Positions 4,188-14,268 of a stretch of DNA of 64,000 nt are shown piece by piece. A model generated the notes under the pieces. It saw only the letters and a program-made list of their open reading frames with translations, did not search any database and had not been told where the DNA came from. The translations under genes and the position numbers were made by a program. Every line of letters starts with the position of its first letter. The stretch's first letter is position 1. This stretch comes from a virus, in IMG/VR virus record IMGVR_UViG_3300032820_000001, positions 62,001-126,000 of that record. One strand, 5' to 3'.

Positions 4188-4222
4188 AAAAAAATAGAGA
4201 GAATGTATAAAGTCCTCTCTAT
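4188..4222 (-). terminator. Rho-independent terminator
   Basis: On the minus strand an 8-bp stem (4215-4222 pairing with 4194-4201, ATAGAGAG/CTCTCTAT) closes a 13-nt loop and is followed by seven T residues (4194-4188). It overlaps the stop codon of the small ORF ending at 4219 and precedes the next promoter-like octamer. Confidence 0.7.
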
Positions 4223-4455
4223 CTTCTTCCGCGAGAACTGGATGCTCTGTTCTCGGATTCTCTTTCTTTTTGTTCTATGAGTCGCTTAATAAACCACCTT
4301 CGAATTGTAATTGGGAGAGTGTAAGCCTCTGCAAATGACCAATTCCCATGGTATTTTAATACAAATAATTCTTCGTATACTGATTCAATATAATTATTAT
4401 CGAGGCCAAAAAAACTCGTAATTGACAGGAACCTCCAGGTCCTGTCGCTCGCCAC
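4219..4455 (-). CDS. Small tail-chaperone-like ORF overlapping the gp26-like gene, possibly expressed by frameshift
   Basis: The frame is open from a GTG at 4455 to TAG at 4219, overlapping the end of the gp26-like gene by 59 nt in another frame. The C-terminal 60 residues look real: YEELFVLKYHGNWSF followed by TLPITIRRWFIKRLIE. This is the aromatic/'RRWF' helix pattern seen in small proteins encoded next to gp26-like genes in other contractile phages. No ATG or TTG exists in the frame. The only conventional start is the GTG, which has no SD. Two other routes are possible: an ATT codon about 9 nt after a GGAGG, or a +1 (or -2) ribosomal shift on the seven-T run at 4408-4414. The boundaries given are therefore the open frame, not a proven gene start. 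Confidence 0.55.
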   Translation of the reverse strand: MASDRTWRFLSITSFFGLDNNYIESVYEELFVLKYHGNWSFAEAYTLPITIRRWFIKRLIEQKERESENRASSSRGRR

Positions 4456-5278
4456 ACTTAGAACATTGAAATTTTTGAGTCATATCAATGTTGGGGGTTA
4501 ATTCAGCATATACGCCGCGCAAATACTTGGAGTCCAGCGCGGGCATAATGTCTACAAAGTTAGAAATTTGTGATCGGTCTTTGATGCCATTGGCTCCGAT
4601 GATAATCATTTTAAGAGTATCGGTTAGAGCAGTGGATGCGTGACCCTGCTTCTCTTTTCGTTTTTGGAAGGCTTCCAGTTTCTCCTCGTCAGCACCCGTC
4701 ATCAGCCTGATCTCTACGTCGGTCTCACTCTTGGGAAGTGTCACAATAAAGGTGCCGTCATCAGTAACTTGGATATCTTCGAGTTCTCCATTGAGCTCTT
4801 CTGCACTAAAGGAGGCACCAACAGTCGACTTTTCATCCAAGTCAAAGGAGAAGTCCTGCTCTGTATTGCAAGAGGGGCACTCCACTTTCGTCAGATAGTC
4901 GGCCCCATAGCCAGCTACACGAGCTGCCACAGTGAGGGCGTTCCTGTCTCCCGTAAGGAGGTCTTTAACATTAATTTCTTCGTCCACGATGAGGCTCTGA
5001 AGCATTCTATCAACAGCAACACCTTTCTGGATAAGGGAAACTGATGCTAGGATGTCTTCTTCCTTTGCGGTCATGTGGCGCATTTCTACCGATTCAACGC
5101 CGCTGAGTGCATGGTTGGCCGGATAATACAATCCGCGTGAAGGAAGATCCACAAATTCAGTGGGAACTGTGAAACTTAATCCTTGTGCGGGTGGTGGCGT
5201 GGTGTTTTCTTCCACGTCAGGAGCAGAGGCTTTGGGGGTTTTTGTCCCCGTCCTCGCTCGATTATTTCTTGATGACAT
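4397..5278 (-). CDS. Base-plate hub assembly protein, gp26-like, with zinc-finger cysteines
   Basis: This 293-residue protein matches the T4 base-plate (gp26-like) family. An N-terminal segment reads FVDLPSRGLYYP (about 40-52), then MRHMTAKEEDIL (about 67-78), and two Cys-x2-Cys knuckles, CPSCNTEQ (about 140) and CSKCGERQ (about 276), could together bind one zinc. The family forms or helps assemble the central hub of the base plate. The first 35 residues are a low-complexity basic/Pro arm. It starts at ATG 5276-5278 behind SD AGAGGTGA. The last codons include TTT TTT TGG on a seven-T run, four codons before the stop, where a shift would fuse it to the next ORF. Confidence 0.75.
   Translation of the reverse strand: MSSRNNRARTGTKTPKASAPDVEENTTPPPAQGLSFTVPTEFVDLPSRGLYYPANHALSGVESVEMRHMTAKEEDILASVSLIQKGVAVDRMLQSLIVDEEINVKDLLTGDRNALTVAARVAGYGADYLTKVECPSCNTEQDFSFDLDEKSTVGASFSAEELNGELEDIQVTDDGTFIVTLPKSETDVEIRLMTGADEEKLEAFQKRKEKQGHASTALTDTLKMIIIGANGIKDRSQISNFVDIMPALDSKYLRGVYAELTPNIDMTQKFQCSKCGERQDLEVPVNYEFFWPR
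4406..4446 (-). other. Candidate programmed frameshift signal
   Basis: On the coding strand, in order: a perfect 7-bp inverted repeat GACAGGA/TCCTGTC (4446-4440 and 4430-4424), whose loop holds an internal SD-like GGAGG, then a run of seven T residues (4414-4408), then TGG in the zero frame. The downstream ORF lies in the +1 frame (equivalent to -2), and the zero frame stops three codons later (4397-4399). A shift at the run would give a product of about 352 residues: the gp26-like protein plus the 62-residue tail. Confidence 0.4.
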
Positions 5279-9304: not shown

Positions 9305-10123
9305 TTAAAAGAAGTCTAAATCAGACTCGTCTAACATTGTTCTTTCGCGGGGGATTTTCACCTCAACAGCATTCTGTCTCTTCACAATAAATGGCTTCTC
9401 TTGGTTGGGGCCGGCGCCGACGAGATAACCCAAGACGCGGATGTCAATTTCACACTCATACATTCTCTCATCCTCTCCCATCTCCTCAACATTACTTGTA
9501 GATGTAAAATCAGATTCAATAAAAGCTTCGTACTTGTGGCCGTCTTTTATGACCGTGAAATAATTTATATTACCTGTCGCGGTCATAAATGGTTGTAATA
9601 AATCATTCATTTGCTGTTGGTACTCGGTTCGAACCTTAACAATATAGTTAGCGTTAACCGAAACTGGAAAAGGGATAGTGATGGTTTCATACACAATCTT
9701 TTTGTTCTTCCTTGGAAAATTTATCTGCCCGCGATCTTTGAGGGCGTCGGCGTTGGCAAAATTAGATGACTTATCTTGGTTGATTTGTCGAGTAATTTGA
9801 AATCCGCCGCCTTTTGCATCAGGGTCATTTGGAATGTTAGCCCATGCAACCCCTTTGCGCGTGGCATCTTTCTCAAACCCTGTTCGCTCTAGAGATAAGA
9901 GAGGAAGGATCAGGGCCCCTTCTTTGTCGCGCATTTCTTTGCTGCGCTTTGACTGATAAGCTCTCTCTGCGGAAACCCAAATAGTGGGGACTTTTTTATA
10001 CCCCCTGTTTGAAGTAACATGGAGATCCATCACTTCGTTTAGCCACTCGTACATCGCCAAGTCCATCGTTTCAATAGTTGATGGCTCAAAAGGTATTACA
10101 ATTTCTTCTTTATCTTCTGCCAT
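9305..10123 (-). CDS. Putative tail terminator / sheath stabiliser (gp15-like)
   Basis: This 272-residue soluble protein lies between the neck-fibre gene and the sheath, where T4 has gp15. Features consistent with the gp15 type are KKVPTIWVSAERAYQSK (about 43-60), LILPLLSLERTG (about 71-82), a beta strand pair ETITIPFPVSVNANYIVKV (about 145-165), and RMYECEIDIRVLGYLVG (about 225-240). The family caps the tail tube and sheath and connects them to the neck. Its start codon overlaps the upstream stop as TAATG, so it is translationally coupled to the neck-fibre gene. The assignment rests on pattern and position and is not certain; a tube terminator (gp3-like) is the main alternative. Confidence 0.5.
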   Translation of the reverse strand: MAEDKEEIVIPFEPSTIETMDLAMYEWLNEVMDLHVTSNRGYKKVPTIWVSAERAYQSKRSKEMRDKEGALILPLLSLERTGFEKDATRKGVAWANIPNDPDAKGGGFQITRQINQDKSSNFANADALKDRGQINFPRKNKKIVYETITIPFPVSVNANYIVKVRTEYQQQMNDLLQPFMTATGNINYFTVIKDGHKYEAFIESDFTSTSNVEEMGEDERMYECEIDIRVLGYLVGAGPNQEKPFIVKRQNAVEVKIPRERTMLDESDLDFF

Positions 10124-13100
10124 TAGTTTCCGTCCCCGCCTGCGGTGTTGCTATCTGCTTTACTATAGAAGCTGCTGGCATGCCAAACTCCGCCTTCGTT
10201 GAAATAGTATTTATCTGATTGGACAAACACGCCAACGGGAGAGGAGCCAACCTTACTTAAGTAAATAGCACGTCCAGCGTAAGATGCCGCATTTTCATCT
10301 AATCCGATTAAAACAGCGCGATCTGAATTTTGTGTTCCGTCAAGAGTTAGTATATTCTGAATGTCAGGATGCGAAGAGGCTTGCGGTTCTTGCGGTGTAG
10401 TGTCAGCGTCCGTATAAAAGTGGGAGGGGTGCCAAATGCCGCCCTCATTAAAGTAAAATTTACTGGGTATTCTAAACGGCGTGACGGGGTTCGAAGCAAT
10501 TGACGACAAATATAAAGTCTTCCCAGAATATAAAACTGAGTTTGTGGCATATTCTTCTATCAGAGCCCTGTTGGGCCCGTCGCCGTCATCGGCCAATGTG
10601 AAAATACCAGACCCAATGGCAGCGATTGCAACAGTCGTAGTTCCACCACCGCCGGGGCCAAGATTAGAAAGTTGTTCATTTAAAGAATTTATTTGAAGCT
10701 GAATATCCTGCTGAGATCCCTGAATTAAGTCCGTGAGGCCATTGACATCTGCCGCCTCAACATATGAGGCAGTTAATCGGGAAAATGTTGGGGCGCCATC
10801 GGGGGTGTTGAATCTAAAGCCATTGGTTTCACCATCGATGGTTATTTTATGTGTTCCCCCGAAAATGATAGAGCCCGTAGAAACATAAATATCTCGCACC
10901 TGCTTGTCTATTGTTCCAATATCATAAAGGTTGCCAGATGCTGGAGCGATATGTCCATGAACCTCGATACCAGATGCGGTAAGAGACGAAACTGTCATTG
11001 CCTTGGTGGATGTGTTTCCTTTGTCGAGAATTGTATCGAGAGTATCTGCTTCCTCATAATAACTCGCAGTGAGGGCGTTTGCCACCGATCCTACAATTTC
11101 AGAGGCAGGGATGTTTGTCAAGTTGGAGGCATCCCCAATATAGGCAGAGGCAGACATTGAACCAGTATATGTTAAAACATTACTTGGGCCGGTAACAGAA
11201 AGAGTCCCCACTGCAGTTGAACCAGAGACAAAATGCAAAGAAGATCGGCGCACATAAATGGCATTCCATGGCTTCGCCAAGGCCCCCAGATCATGACTAA
11301 ATCGAGAATACGGCAAGATATTACCACTAGAATTTATTGTCCCCTCAAAATTGTGAGAGTCCAAAATCCCCGATCCAAAATTAGTTGTTCGAGTCACACT
11401 CAAGTTGCCCGTAATTGCGGCGGCGCCTACGTGATGTCCATCCCAAGATCCAGTGACACCAACCAAGCCAATGCCACTCCCAATAAAAGAGGAGGCCGAG
11501 AGCGTGGAAGAAACACTAACGTCGCCCATGAAATTAACGGTATCCCTGAATATAGAAGTTCCTCCTGAGCCAGTTTGAAGAAAAGAACCTGTAAACCTAT
11601 GAGTGTCGCTGAGGACATTGCCGAACGACGTGGAGCCAGAATATGTTAAGACACTACTATCGTCGACAGAAATTGTTCCCACATCCGTGGTACCGGATAT
11701 AAAGTGAAGAGAGCGATGGCCGACGTAGAGGGTATTCCACGGTTTTGCTGGGGAGCCTAAGTTGTGACTGAATCTCGCATTGGGGACAAGGTTCCCACTG
11801 ATATCTAGGCTTCCCGAAAAAATATGAGAGTCGGTATCGCTTGATCCAAAAGTTGTTGAATCCGACACAACTAGCGAGCCCGTAATTGCTGCATCACCTG
11901 TGTGTTGTCCATCCCAGTCTCCAGTGACGCCAGTGATGCCGGTGCCATCGCCAAAGAAAGCGGAGGCAGAGACGTGGCCAGAGGCGGTGAGGTTTGTTAC
12001 CTCAAGTGTTCCTGTAATTGCTGCATCGCCTGTGTGTTGACCATCCCAATCTCCGGTGACACCGGTTAAGCCAGCTCCATCGCCGAAAAAGGAAGAGCCG
12101 CTTATAATAGAGCCAGTTATATTTTGTGCGTGTACCAAAGTCCCGGACACGTTACCAGTTACATCACCCAGAACGCTGCCAGTGAGATCTCCAGTTACGT
12201 TCCCGGCTAAGTCGCCAGTTACGTTTCCTGCAACATCACCCAGAACGCTTCCGGTTAAGTTGCCAGTAACGTCACCAGTAACATCACCAGTAAGATTGCC
12301 AAGAACGCTGCCAGTTAAATCCCCAGTTACGTTTCCTGCAACATCACCCAGAACGCTTCCGGTTAAGTTGCCAGTGACATCTCCAGTTAAATTTCCAGCA
12401 ACGTTACCCAGAACACTTCCAGTTAGATTTCCAGTTACATTGCCAGTTACATTGCCAAGGATGCTGCCCGTCAAATTGCCAGTGACATCGCCAGTGACAT
12501 CACCAGTTACATTGCCAAGGACACTGCCAGTTAAATCTCCGGTCACGTTCCCGGTAAGGTCGCCAAGAACGCTTCCAGTTAAGTCACCAGTTACATTCCC
12601 AACAACATCGCCAGCAACGTCACCAATCACAGGCCCCAATAAAGAGCCAGTAAAGGATGTTGCCTCCACTGTTGATCCTGATATTGCTTGCGTCACAAAC
12701 ATAGAACCAGTTATGTGAGCATCACCAGTTAAATTTCCATCCCAAGAGCCACCAACGCCGCTTAGGTTACTACCATCGCCAAAAAAGGCAGATGCAGAGA
12801 TAGAAAGAGAGGAAGATAAATTTCCCTGAATTTCTATATCATCTTTGAAAATAGAAGTTGCGCCGGAGCCGGTCTGGAGGATAGATCCTGTAAATTGGTG
12901 GGTGTTGGTTAGAAGAGAGCCGAACTTTGTGGAACCCGTAAGATTTATATCTCCAGAAGAATTGATTGTTATCTCATCACTGGTGGAAGTTAGTGTTACG
13001 TTGGTTCCCTCCACTAAAGTTTTCATATTAAATTGGATTCCAGTTTTATTCCTGAAGACTCCCTCGCCAGTGCCAACATTGGCCATTGTGTTATCCACAC

Positions 13101-14268
13101 CATCGGGAGTTATAATGTTTGCGTTCTCGCATGCCGTAACGGAATCCAGATCAAACTCACTAACAGTCCCCTCAACCTCGGAAAGCTTGAAGATTCCTTC
13201 CCTGGCTCGGATGCAGCTGGCCACCACTTCAAACTTCTCGTCTATTTTCCCGAAAAGTAACTTGGGTTGTCCCACAGTAATAATTTCATAAAGAATATTC
13301 CCATAAAGGACGAAATCTCCCTCTCTAACAAAAAGATTTTGGTCTTCGGTGAGGCGCCGCTTGTGAAACTTAACGTCGATAGCGGATTTTCTGTCAATTC
13401 CAAAACTGGTGGTGGTGGTATCGCTGCCTTTCCACTCGATAGCTGCGAATACGCGTATGGGCGGCAAAAAAGTCTTATTTATAGCTTCGCCGTATAATTC
13501 ATGAAAATCAGAATTTGGAATGGACACCGGAAAGTATACAACCTGTTGGCCGACAACCCTTTCGAGTACCTCGTCGTTGACTTGTTTAACTAAATTTGAT
13601 TCTTTTCTCCCCGTAAAAAGGGGAGGAGGTGGTGTGCCCGGTCTTTCGTACACTTCGCCACAGGGTTGCTCGCCGGAGCCTCCGGTGCTGGTGGTGTCTC
13701 CCGTTAAAACTCGTATTTCTTGGATGGGATCGCATGCCGGTGCTGTTAAGCGCGGATCATCATCTCCGTCGTCTGCATAAGATTCCGAGGGGAAAGTTCC
13801 GTCCCTTGCGCGGACGCATTTTGCAGAAATTTCAATCTTTGAATCGGGTTGACCGAACAACAGCTTTGGCTGGGCCAGCTGCACAATCTCATACTTCTGT
13901 TCACCATACTGAATGAAGTCTCCCTCTCTTACAAAGAGGTTTTGGTCTTCGGTAAGGCGGCGCTTGTGAAAATGAATTGTCACTGAGGACTTCTTATCTA
14001 TTCCGAAGCCAGTGGTAGCGGTTTCTTCGCCTTCCCACTCGGCCAAGACTTCCACATGAACGGGTGGCAAGTAAGTTTTGTTAATTGCTTCACCATAAAG
14101 TGGGTGGAAATCTGAGTGTTTTAAACTAATGGGATAGTAGAGTATCGAAGTTCCGATTACTCTTTCGATTACCTCGTCAGTAACCTGCTTTACAATGTCT
14201 TTTTCTTTTTGCCCCGTAAACAAAGGAGGTGGAGGGGCTTCAGGTTGCTTCCACTGATTATCAGACAT
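10123..14268 (-). CDS. Neck protein with duplicated gp14-like domain fused to a long fibre
   Basis: This 1381-residue protein starts at an ATG with SD AGGGGGAT. About residues 1-175 and 205-375 are two copies of one domain. Each begins PPPPLFTG-x-KE and contains LYGEAINKT, FGID-KS, FHKRRLTEDQNLFVREGDF, a YEI strand and a final C-x-RAR-G-F. This layout (YGE, FG-D, REGD, YEI, FG) resembles the T4 neck protein gp14. The rest is fibrous: repeated FFGDG-x-x-(L/I)TGV blocks, about 40 tetrapeptides of Gly-(Asp/Asn)-(Val/Leu)-Thr type (about 545-710), further blocks, then two C-terminal copies of a Tyr-Phe-x-Glu-Gly-Gly-x-Trp-His module. The gene follows the gp13-like neck gene, as gp14 does in T4. 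It may form a neck whisker or collar fibre in which the fibre is covalently part of the neck. Confidence 0.7.
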   Translation of the reverse strand: MSDNQWKQPEAPPPPLFTGQKEKDIVKQVTDEVIERVIGTSILYYPISLKHSDFHPLYGEAINKTYLPPVHVEVLAEWEGEETATTGFGIDKKSSVTIHFHKRRLTEDQNLFVREGDFIQYGEQKYEIVQLAQPKLLFGQPDSKIEISAKCVRARDGTFPSESYADDGDDDPRLTAPACDPIQEIRVLTGDTTSTGGSGEQPCGEVYERPGTPPPPLFTGRKESNLVKQVNDEVLERVVGQQVVYFPVSIPNSDFHELYGEAINKTFLPPIRVFAAIEWKGSDTTTTSFGIDRKSAIDVKFHKRRLTEDQNLFVREGDFVLYGNILYEIITVGQPKLLFGKIDEKFEVVASCIRAREGIFKLSEVEGTVSEFDLDSVTACENANIITPDGVDNTMANVGTGEGVFRNKTGIQFNMKTLVEGTNVTLTSTSDEITINSSGDINLTGSTKFGSLLTNTHQFTGSILQTGSGATSIFKDDIEIQGNLSSSLSISASAFFGDGSNLSGVGGSWDGNLTGDAHITGSMFVTQAISGSTVEATSFTGSLLGPVIGDVAGDVVGNVTGDLTGSVLGDLTGNVTGDLTGSVLGNVTGDVTGDVTGNLTGSILGNVTGNVTGNLTGSVLGNVAGNLTGDVTGNLTGSVLGDVAGNVTGDLTGSVLGNLTGDVTGDVTGNLTGSVLGDVAGNVTGDLAGNVTGDLTGSVLGDVTGNVSGTLVHAQNITGSIISGSSFFGDGAGLTGVTGDWDGQHTGDAAITGTLEVTNLTASGHVSASAFFGDGTGITGVTGDWDGQHTGDAAITGSLVVSDSTTFGSSDTDSHIFSGSLDISGNLVPNARFSHNLGSPAKPWNTLYVGHRSLHFISGTTDVGTISVDDSSVLTYSGSTSFGNVLSDTHRFTGSFLQTGSGGTSIFRDTVNFMGDVSVSSTLSASSFIGSGIGLVGVTGSWDGHHVGAAAITGNLSVTRTTNFGSGILDSHNFEGTINSSGNILPYSRFSHDLGALAKPWNAIYVRRSSLHFVSGSTAVGTLSVTGPSNVLTYTGSMSASAYIGDASNLTNIPASEIVGSVANALTASYYEEADTLDTILDKGNTSTKAMTVSSLTASGIEVHGHIAPASGNLYDIGTIDKQVRDIYVSTGSIIFGGTHKITIDGETNGFRFNTPDGAPTFSRLTASYVEAADVNGLTDLIQGSQQDIQLQINSLNEQLSNLGPGGGGTTTVAIAAIGSGIFTLADDGDGPNRALIEEYATNSVLYSGKTLYLSSIASNPVTPFRIPSKFYFNEGGIWHPSHFYTDADTTPQEPQASSHPDIQNILTLDGTQNSDRAVLIGLDENAASYAGRAIYLSKVGSSPVGVFVQSDKYYFNEGGVWHASSFYSKADSNTAGGDGN
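12126..12650 (-). repeat. Tandem tetrapeptide-coding repeat in the neck-fibre gene
   Basis: About 40 tandem 12-nt units encode Gly-(Asp/Asn)-(Val/Leu)-(Thr/Ala), interrupted at regular intervals by G-S-V-L or G-S-I-L, for example GDVTGNLTGSVLGNVTG. Units differ mainly at synonymous positions. Similar G-N-V-T repeats occur in tail fibres of other marine phages and probably form a triple-beta helix or comparable fibre. The repeat is prone to unit gain or loss. Confidence 0.85.

Follow-up and report, generated by a model that had tools for sequence, protein, structure and literature searches.

Comparative analysis of a contractile-tailed phage indicates that its gp26-like tail gene very probably carries a programmed +1 ribosomal frameshift, and sequence comparison strongly supports that the essential element of the site is YUU_U rather than a run of seven T residues as such. 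The DNA analysed, referred to here as the window, is a stretch of 64,000 nucleotides that forms part of a virus record of 191,133 bases. The following features of the window are relevant for the analysis:

9200-5973, minus strand: tail sheath gene, 1075 aa.
5918-5307, minus strand: tail tube gene, directly upstream of the gp26-like gene.
4397-5278, minus strand: gp26-like gene (PF12322 T4_baseplate / phrog_150), short product of 293 aa.
4424-4446, minus strand: 7-bp inverted repeat GACAGGA/TCCTGTC (4424-4430 / 4440-4446) around GGAGG, restricted to this phage and its nearest kin.
4432-4436, minus strand: GGAGG within the coding sequence (CCTCC on the plus strand).
4408-4414, minus strand: T7 run (two TTT codons and the first base of TGG; an A-run on the plus strand).
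4408-4411, minus strand: predicted +1 shift, assigned by comparison, in which the P-site TTT (4411-4409) re-pairs with TTT (4410-4408).
4219-4407, minus strand: +1-frame second part, extending from the Gly codon GGC that follows the predicted slip to TAG; three-helix, DUF6760-like.
4222-5278, minus strand: predicted frameshift product P0001, 352 aa, translated with TTTT read as F.

On the minus strand the genes are ordered sheath, tube, gp26-like gene, second ORF, a 111-aa ORF and a 741-aa ORF. The gp26-like protein, which contains zinc-ribbon-like motifs, matches Pfam PF12322 (E 1.6e-16; 61.1 bits, exceeding the curated cut-off of 24.5) and PHROG phrog_150 (E 4e-19). Family searches gave no convincing match for the 741-aa gene of the window; tape measure is the annotation of the next large gene in relatives, the order there being tube, pair, tape measure. 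The gp26-like gene and the second part sit between the tail-tube and tape-measure positions (the latter by annotation in relatives), and a place between tube and tape measure is the classical one for chaperone pairs. A sheath C-terminal domain was recognized at residues 968-1064 of the tail sheath, which also has long inserts without a match. Upstream of the tail genes, a 1381-aa protein (window 10123-14268, minus strand) contains many tandem GNVTGNLTGS-type repeats.

The 3′ end of the gp26-like gene reads GAG TTT TTT TGG CCT CGA TAA. The first-pass annotation of this DNA had described a gp26-like frame ending on seven consecutive Ts and overlapped by an ORF in the +1 frame, and the sequence is as described: the +1 frame opens after an upstream in-frame TGA and ends at a TAG located at 4219-4221. 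The second ORF had also been said to lack ATG and TTG, which is correct; its open frame does contain one GTG (4455-4453), which had gone unmentioned, one CTG and one ATT (4422-4420), the latter being ahead of the T run with GGAGG 9 nt before it. Products of 293 and about 352 residues had been expected, and +1 readthrough gives exactly 352. The AF2 model of the 352-aa fusion has a mean pLDDT of 85.0, and the second part, modelled as a three-helix domain, one of 90.7. When compared with PF20546 (DUF6760), the second part gives E values of 2.9e-4 to 5.5e-4 (20.4-21.3 bits), which is below the curated cut-off of 27; at E≤0.01, PF20546 is matched by 29 of 64 second parts. Counting both strands, the 64 kb contain 16 runs of at least seven Ts, and T7 alone is not rare. 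The departure from chance lies instead in how consistently relatives keep the site and the frame relation, as judged from sequence comparison.

For this comparison, a viral scan yielded 580 stretches encoding gp26-like relatives, the best 80 of which were used, and further loci were added from phage, viral and genome collections. To determine the frame relation, all six frames were searched from stop to stop with profile HMMs. Among the 172 loci that yielded both parts (best 80 of the 580 viral stretches plus the other collections), 171 have the second part in +1; in the remaining one, L088, the second part has an ATG of its own, which overlaps the stop. A pair of this kind resembles one gene split by a one-base shift, as a pseudogene, a sequencing error or a chance overlap would, an explanation that we consider negligible when the same shift recurs in 171 loci, drawn from isolated phages and from numerous independent contigs, and both frames are conserved as proteins. 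Among the properties that the first-pass annotation had proposed to follow in relatives, the frame relation stood and the T run itself did not, the homopolymer being broken (TTC TTT TGG, TTT CTT TGG/TAC) in 26 of 145 sites; lack of any ATG, GTG or TTG for the second ORF, in a scan that began where the +1 frame opens and ended 12 codons beyond the slip, extends to 38 of 145 loci. What is conserved is NNN-YTT-T, present in all 145 distinct canonical sites and retained by the representative of each of the 23 groups obtained after clustering gp26 at 55% identity. The previous proposal of a frameshift on a T7 run therefore keeps its first half, with YUU_U taking the place of T7. The sites include TTTTTTTGG, TTTCTTTGG, TTCTTTTGG, TTTTTTTAC and TTTTTTTTC; the most frequent are TTTTTTTGGCCT (105 of 145), TTTCTTTGGCCT (17), TTCTTTTGGCCT (7) and TTTTTTTACCCT (4), with a few others. 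The codon in the A site is a sense codon, mostly UGG, otherwise UAC or UUC.

The broken runs also bear on how the frame would be changed. The first-pass annotation had left open a +1 or a −2 slip. A −2 ribosomal frameshift on T7, as in Mu-like phages, would lead into the same frame with one residue more; such a shift is known in Mu (PMC5009743), and −2 re-pairing is possible on the T7 run of the window. At the 26 variant sites, however, it would place tRNA-Phe on UCU or tRNA-Leu on UUC, whereas +1 re-pairing on UUU is preserved in every one of them. As TTT-CTT-T and TTC-TTT-T retain +1 P-site re-pairing and break −2 pairing, the −2 part of the proposal is disfavoured, and we regard it as very improbable. 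The same variants argue against transcriptional slippage, by which the T run would alter the base count of the mRNA: the seven-T homopolymer is indeed present at most sites, but the TTTCTTT and TTCTTTT sites keep the frame relation with the run broken. Runs of seven Ts are, furthermore, short for transcriptional slippage, and we assign this explanation hardly any probability.

The +1 relation with UUU-based sites extends to more distant phages, where the site assignments, made in part by inspecting the translated frames, are AAC TTT CTA (LR756508), TTC TTT CGT (a Streptococcus phage), TTT TTT CAC (SP-15), CTG TTT CAG (a Streptomyces phage) and TTT TTT AGT (a Listeria phage). In the Stenotrophomonas phage RAS14 (L086:4200-4400), the two parts look joined via the −1 frame, at AGT TTT TTT ATC (U UUU UUU A), unlike elsewhere in the family. 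In three other loci (L082:4234-4470, L084:4333-4443 and L089:4255-4374) the second part has been annotated either as a CDS by itself or as a short fragment, its start placed internally or upstream; these calls are probably annotation artefacts of the frameshift.

Judged by codon usage, the slip codon and its flanking bases are under selection at the nucleotide level. All 126 slip codons for Phe are TTT, whereas TTT and TTC are mixed in all five other well-filled Phe columns. Immediately before the run, 132 of 145 loci have C or G. Among the codons before the run, Asp is GAC in 30 of 31 (35% elsewhere), Asn is AAC in 32 of 36 (31% elsewhere) and Ser is AGC in 21 of 22, while elsewhere in these genes Asp, Asn and Ser codons favour T-ending forms. 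A base other than T before the run would avoid the −1 heptamer T TTT TTT. Downstream of the slip, Leu is the second +1 codon in 143 of 145 loci, including loci without the frame-0 Pro (TGG TCT, TGG TTT). As Leu is kept when the frame-0 Pro changes to Ser or Phe, the +1 frame appears to be read as protein from the first post-slip codons.

The first-pass annotation had also pointed to an inverted repeat and to internal SD sequences as stimulators of known frameshifts. The 7-bp inverted repeat GACAGGA/TCCTGTC with GGAGG in its loop is present in the window as reported. As a stimulator the hairpin was rejected: it is confined to close kin, with single pairs kept in 24-40 of 47 loci and the full 7 bp in 3. 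The 3′ end of GGAGG lies about 20 nt before the slip codon, a spacing common to 52 of 145 loci. In one clade (group 1), the Glu codon of this motif is GAG in 48 of 48 cases, and in 33 of 33 once loci are clustered at 70%, compared with 34% elsewhere, from which it follows that GGAGG is selected in that clade. The constraint on the group-1 motif is synonymous, yet no conserved start codon is found at initiation spacing from it. GGAGG is absent at the equivalent place in group 2 and lost in other loci, and 20 nt is outside the known stimulatory spacing; confined to one clade and at this distance, it was rejected as a general stimulator. Downstream RNA folding is near background (mean z −0.43 and −0.71), with no strong signal. 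A search across the loci for a universal stimulator among hairpin, downstream folding and GGAGG found none, a result that, like the sense codon in the A site, counts against the frameshift.

GGAGG also enters the alternative that the second ORF is independently initiated, be it at the ATT following GGAGG, at the GTG at 4455 or by termination-reinitiation. The arrangement of GGAGG and ATT in the window suits such a start, and so do the synonymous constraint on GGAGG in one clade, the ATG overlaps in two jumbo phages, and homologous actinobacterial pairs with a GTGA overlap and a GGGGGA motif. The ATT start put forward by the first-pass annotation nevertheless fails, because ATT occurs only in this phage and a near-identical copy. 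Independent initiation in general has to contend with the loci devoid of any ATG, GTG or TTG and with the lack of GGAGG in group 2, and it leaves the conserved YTT-T and the post-slip Gly-Leu codons unaccounted for. In 27 of the 145 loci the +1 frame opens merely 9-15 nt ahead of the first post-slip codon. We consider independent initiation to be of very low probability at this locus. Relatives with their own start and SD and no homopolymer, which had been named beforehand as the finding that would speak against a frameshift, turned up only as distant exceptions, namely the two jumbo phages and actinobacterial injection systems; all closer relatives retain the slip site. In the actinobacterial genomes, probably encoding contractile injection systems, DUF6760 is beside a gp26-like gene in the same order and with a similar helical pattern. 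There it has its own overlapping GTG start, whereas the second part in the phage is predicted to be reached via frameshift; in L185, L186, L188 and L189 the DUF6760 GTG overlaps the gp26-like stop (GGGGGAATCGTGA), an overlap instead of a frameshift. The own starts in jumbo phages and injection systems imply that the fusion is not needed everywhere.

Under the +1 frameshift, most ribosomes would terminate at TAA and release the 293-aa form. A fraction, with tRNA-Phe (tRNA-Leu at the CUU variants) in the P site on YUU while a sense codon, mostly UGG, awaits in the A site, would slip by +1 onto UUU and then read GGC CTN and so on in the +1 frame, by which a helical domain of approximately 62 residues would be appended to give 352 aa in total. 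The exact slip base within the T run is placed here by comparison of the sites. The predicted junction peptide of this phage is NYEFFGLDNNYIESVYEELF, with two Phe if the shift is +1 and three if it is −2. The frame relation, the conserved site, the missing start codons, the gene order and the copy numbers are observed in the sequences; we infer the occurrence and the efficiency of the shift, as well as a chaperone role of its product.

T4 gp26 and gp51 are listed as hub-assembly chaperones (PMC3004832). Both are strong PF12322 matches, and the family is shared with this phage. T4, taken as a control, has two PF12322 genes; this 191-kb record, which may be incomplete, has one; nine other matching records likewise have one apiece, and six further records give no PF12322 match at the cut-off, though a closer profile finds the gp26-like gene there. 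T4 gp26 ends with EFFELL after a zinc-knuckle-like motif, and the C-terminal stretch of gp51 extends beyond the gp26 end. Scores were low when the gp26 alignment was compared directly, at profile level, with T4 gp26 or gp51 as single sequences. The gp51 extension aligned with the second part at an hhalign score of 16.0, a value reached by 1 of 150 shuffles in a broad set and by 39 of 150 in another, and the comparison with phrog_634 gave E values of 0.03-0.9; homology between the gp51 extension and the second part is suggestive only. Searches of PDB folds with the fusion and second-part models returned no significant match, the HK97 chaperone 2ob9 being at rank 10 for the fusion model (Foldseek, E 1.4, probability 0.30). 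The simplest reading is that of a short/long tail-assembly-chaperone pair, obtained here by +1 recoding of one gene and in T4 from two: T4 would reach the same pair with the paralogous genes 26 (short) and 51 (with the C-terminal extension). Vladimirov et al. (2022, Virology 566:9-15) reportedly identify T4-like chaperone genes and propose a mechanism other than frameshifting.

The arrangement can be compared with the lambda gpG/gpGT and TAC-N/TAC-NC pairs, likewise encoded between tube and tape-measure genes. Lambda makes a short form and a rare extended form via a frameshift near the 3′ end, as is predicted for this phage; no sequence relation to gpG/gpGT is shown, and the shift in this phage would be a +1 at YUU_U before a sense codon. 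Extrapolating from lambda G/GT, the segment shared by both forms would engage the tape measure, and the rare C-terminal domain would serve to bring in tail-tube or hub proteins; the role of the predicted products as tail-assembly chaperones is proposed on this analogy. Chaperone frameshifts of −1, −2 and +1 are all known, in different phages (PMC5009743). The +1 site of prfB (release factor 2) involves a P-site slip on CUU_U or UUU_U, matched by YUU_U here; in prfB, CUU_U is the rule, UUU_U being found in a minority of species (PMC5009743). Unlike prfB, which has a stop codon in the A site and an SD sequence a few nucleotides upstream, the sites described here have a sense A-site codon and a GGAGG that is 20 nt away or absent.

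Taken together, it seems to us rather probable that a short/long chaperone pair is general in the T4-gp26 superfamily and is made in at least four ways: by +1 frameshifting at YUU_U before a sense codon, at a site without A-site stop, adjacent SD or conserved structure; by −1 frameshifting at U UUU UUU (one Stenotrophomonas phage); by overlapping genes (jumbo phages and injection systems); and by duplication (T4 26/51). While +1 frameshifts in chaperone genes are known, what appears to be new is the PF12322 family, a slip site whose A-site codon is a sense codon, and the difference from T4. In the open literature we found no paper on a +1 shift in PF12322 genes, though a prior mention in Vladimirov et al. 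(2022) is possible. To our knowledge, few bacterial or phage examples of +1 sites with a sense A-site codon are known. Such sites are difficult to recognize (PMC5009743), and the relatives analysed provide over a hundred natural variants of one. The frameshift would explain why annotated phages show "hypothetical protein" calls that are short or overlap, or lack such a call. It provides a predicted route to the long chaperone form in a large group of contractile-tailed phages, most of them environmental, and suggests a simple account of how the puzzling gp26/gp51 pair evolved, which would correspond to one recoded gene elsewhere and to two genes in T4.
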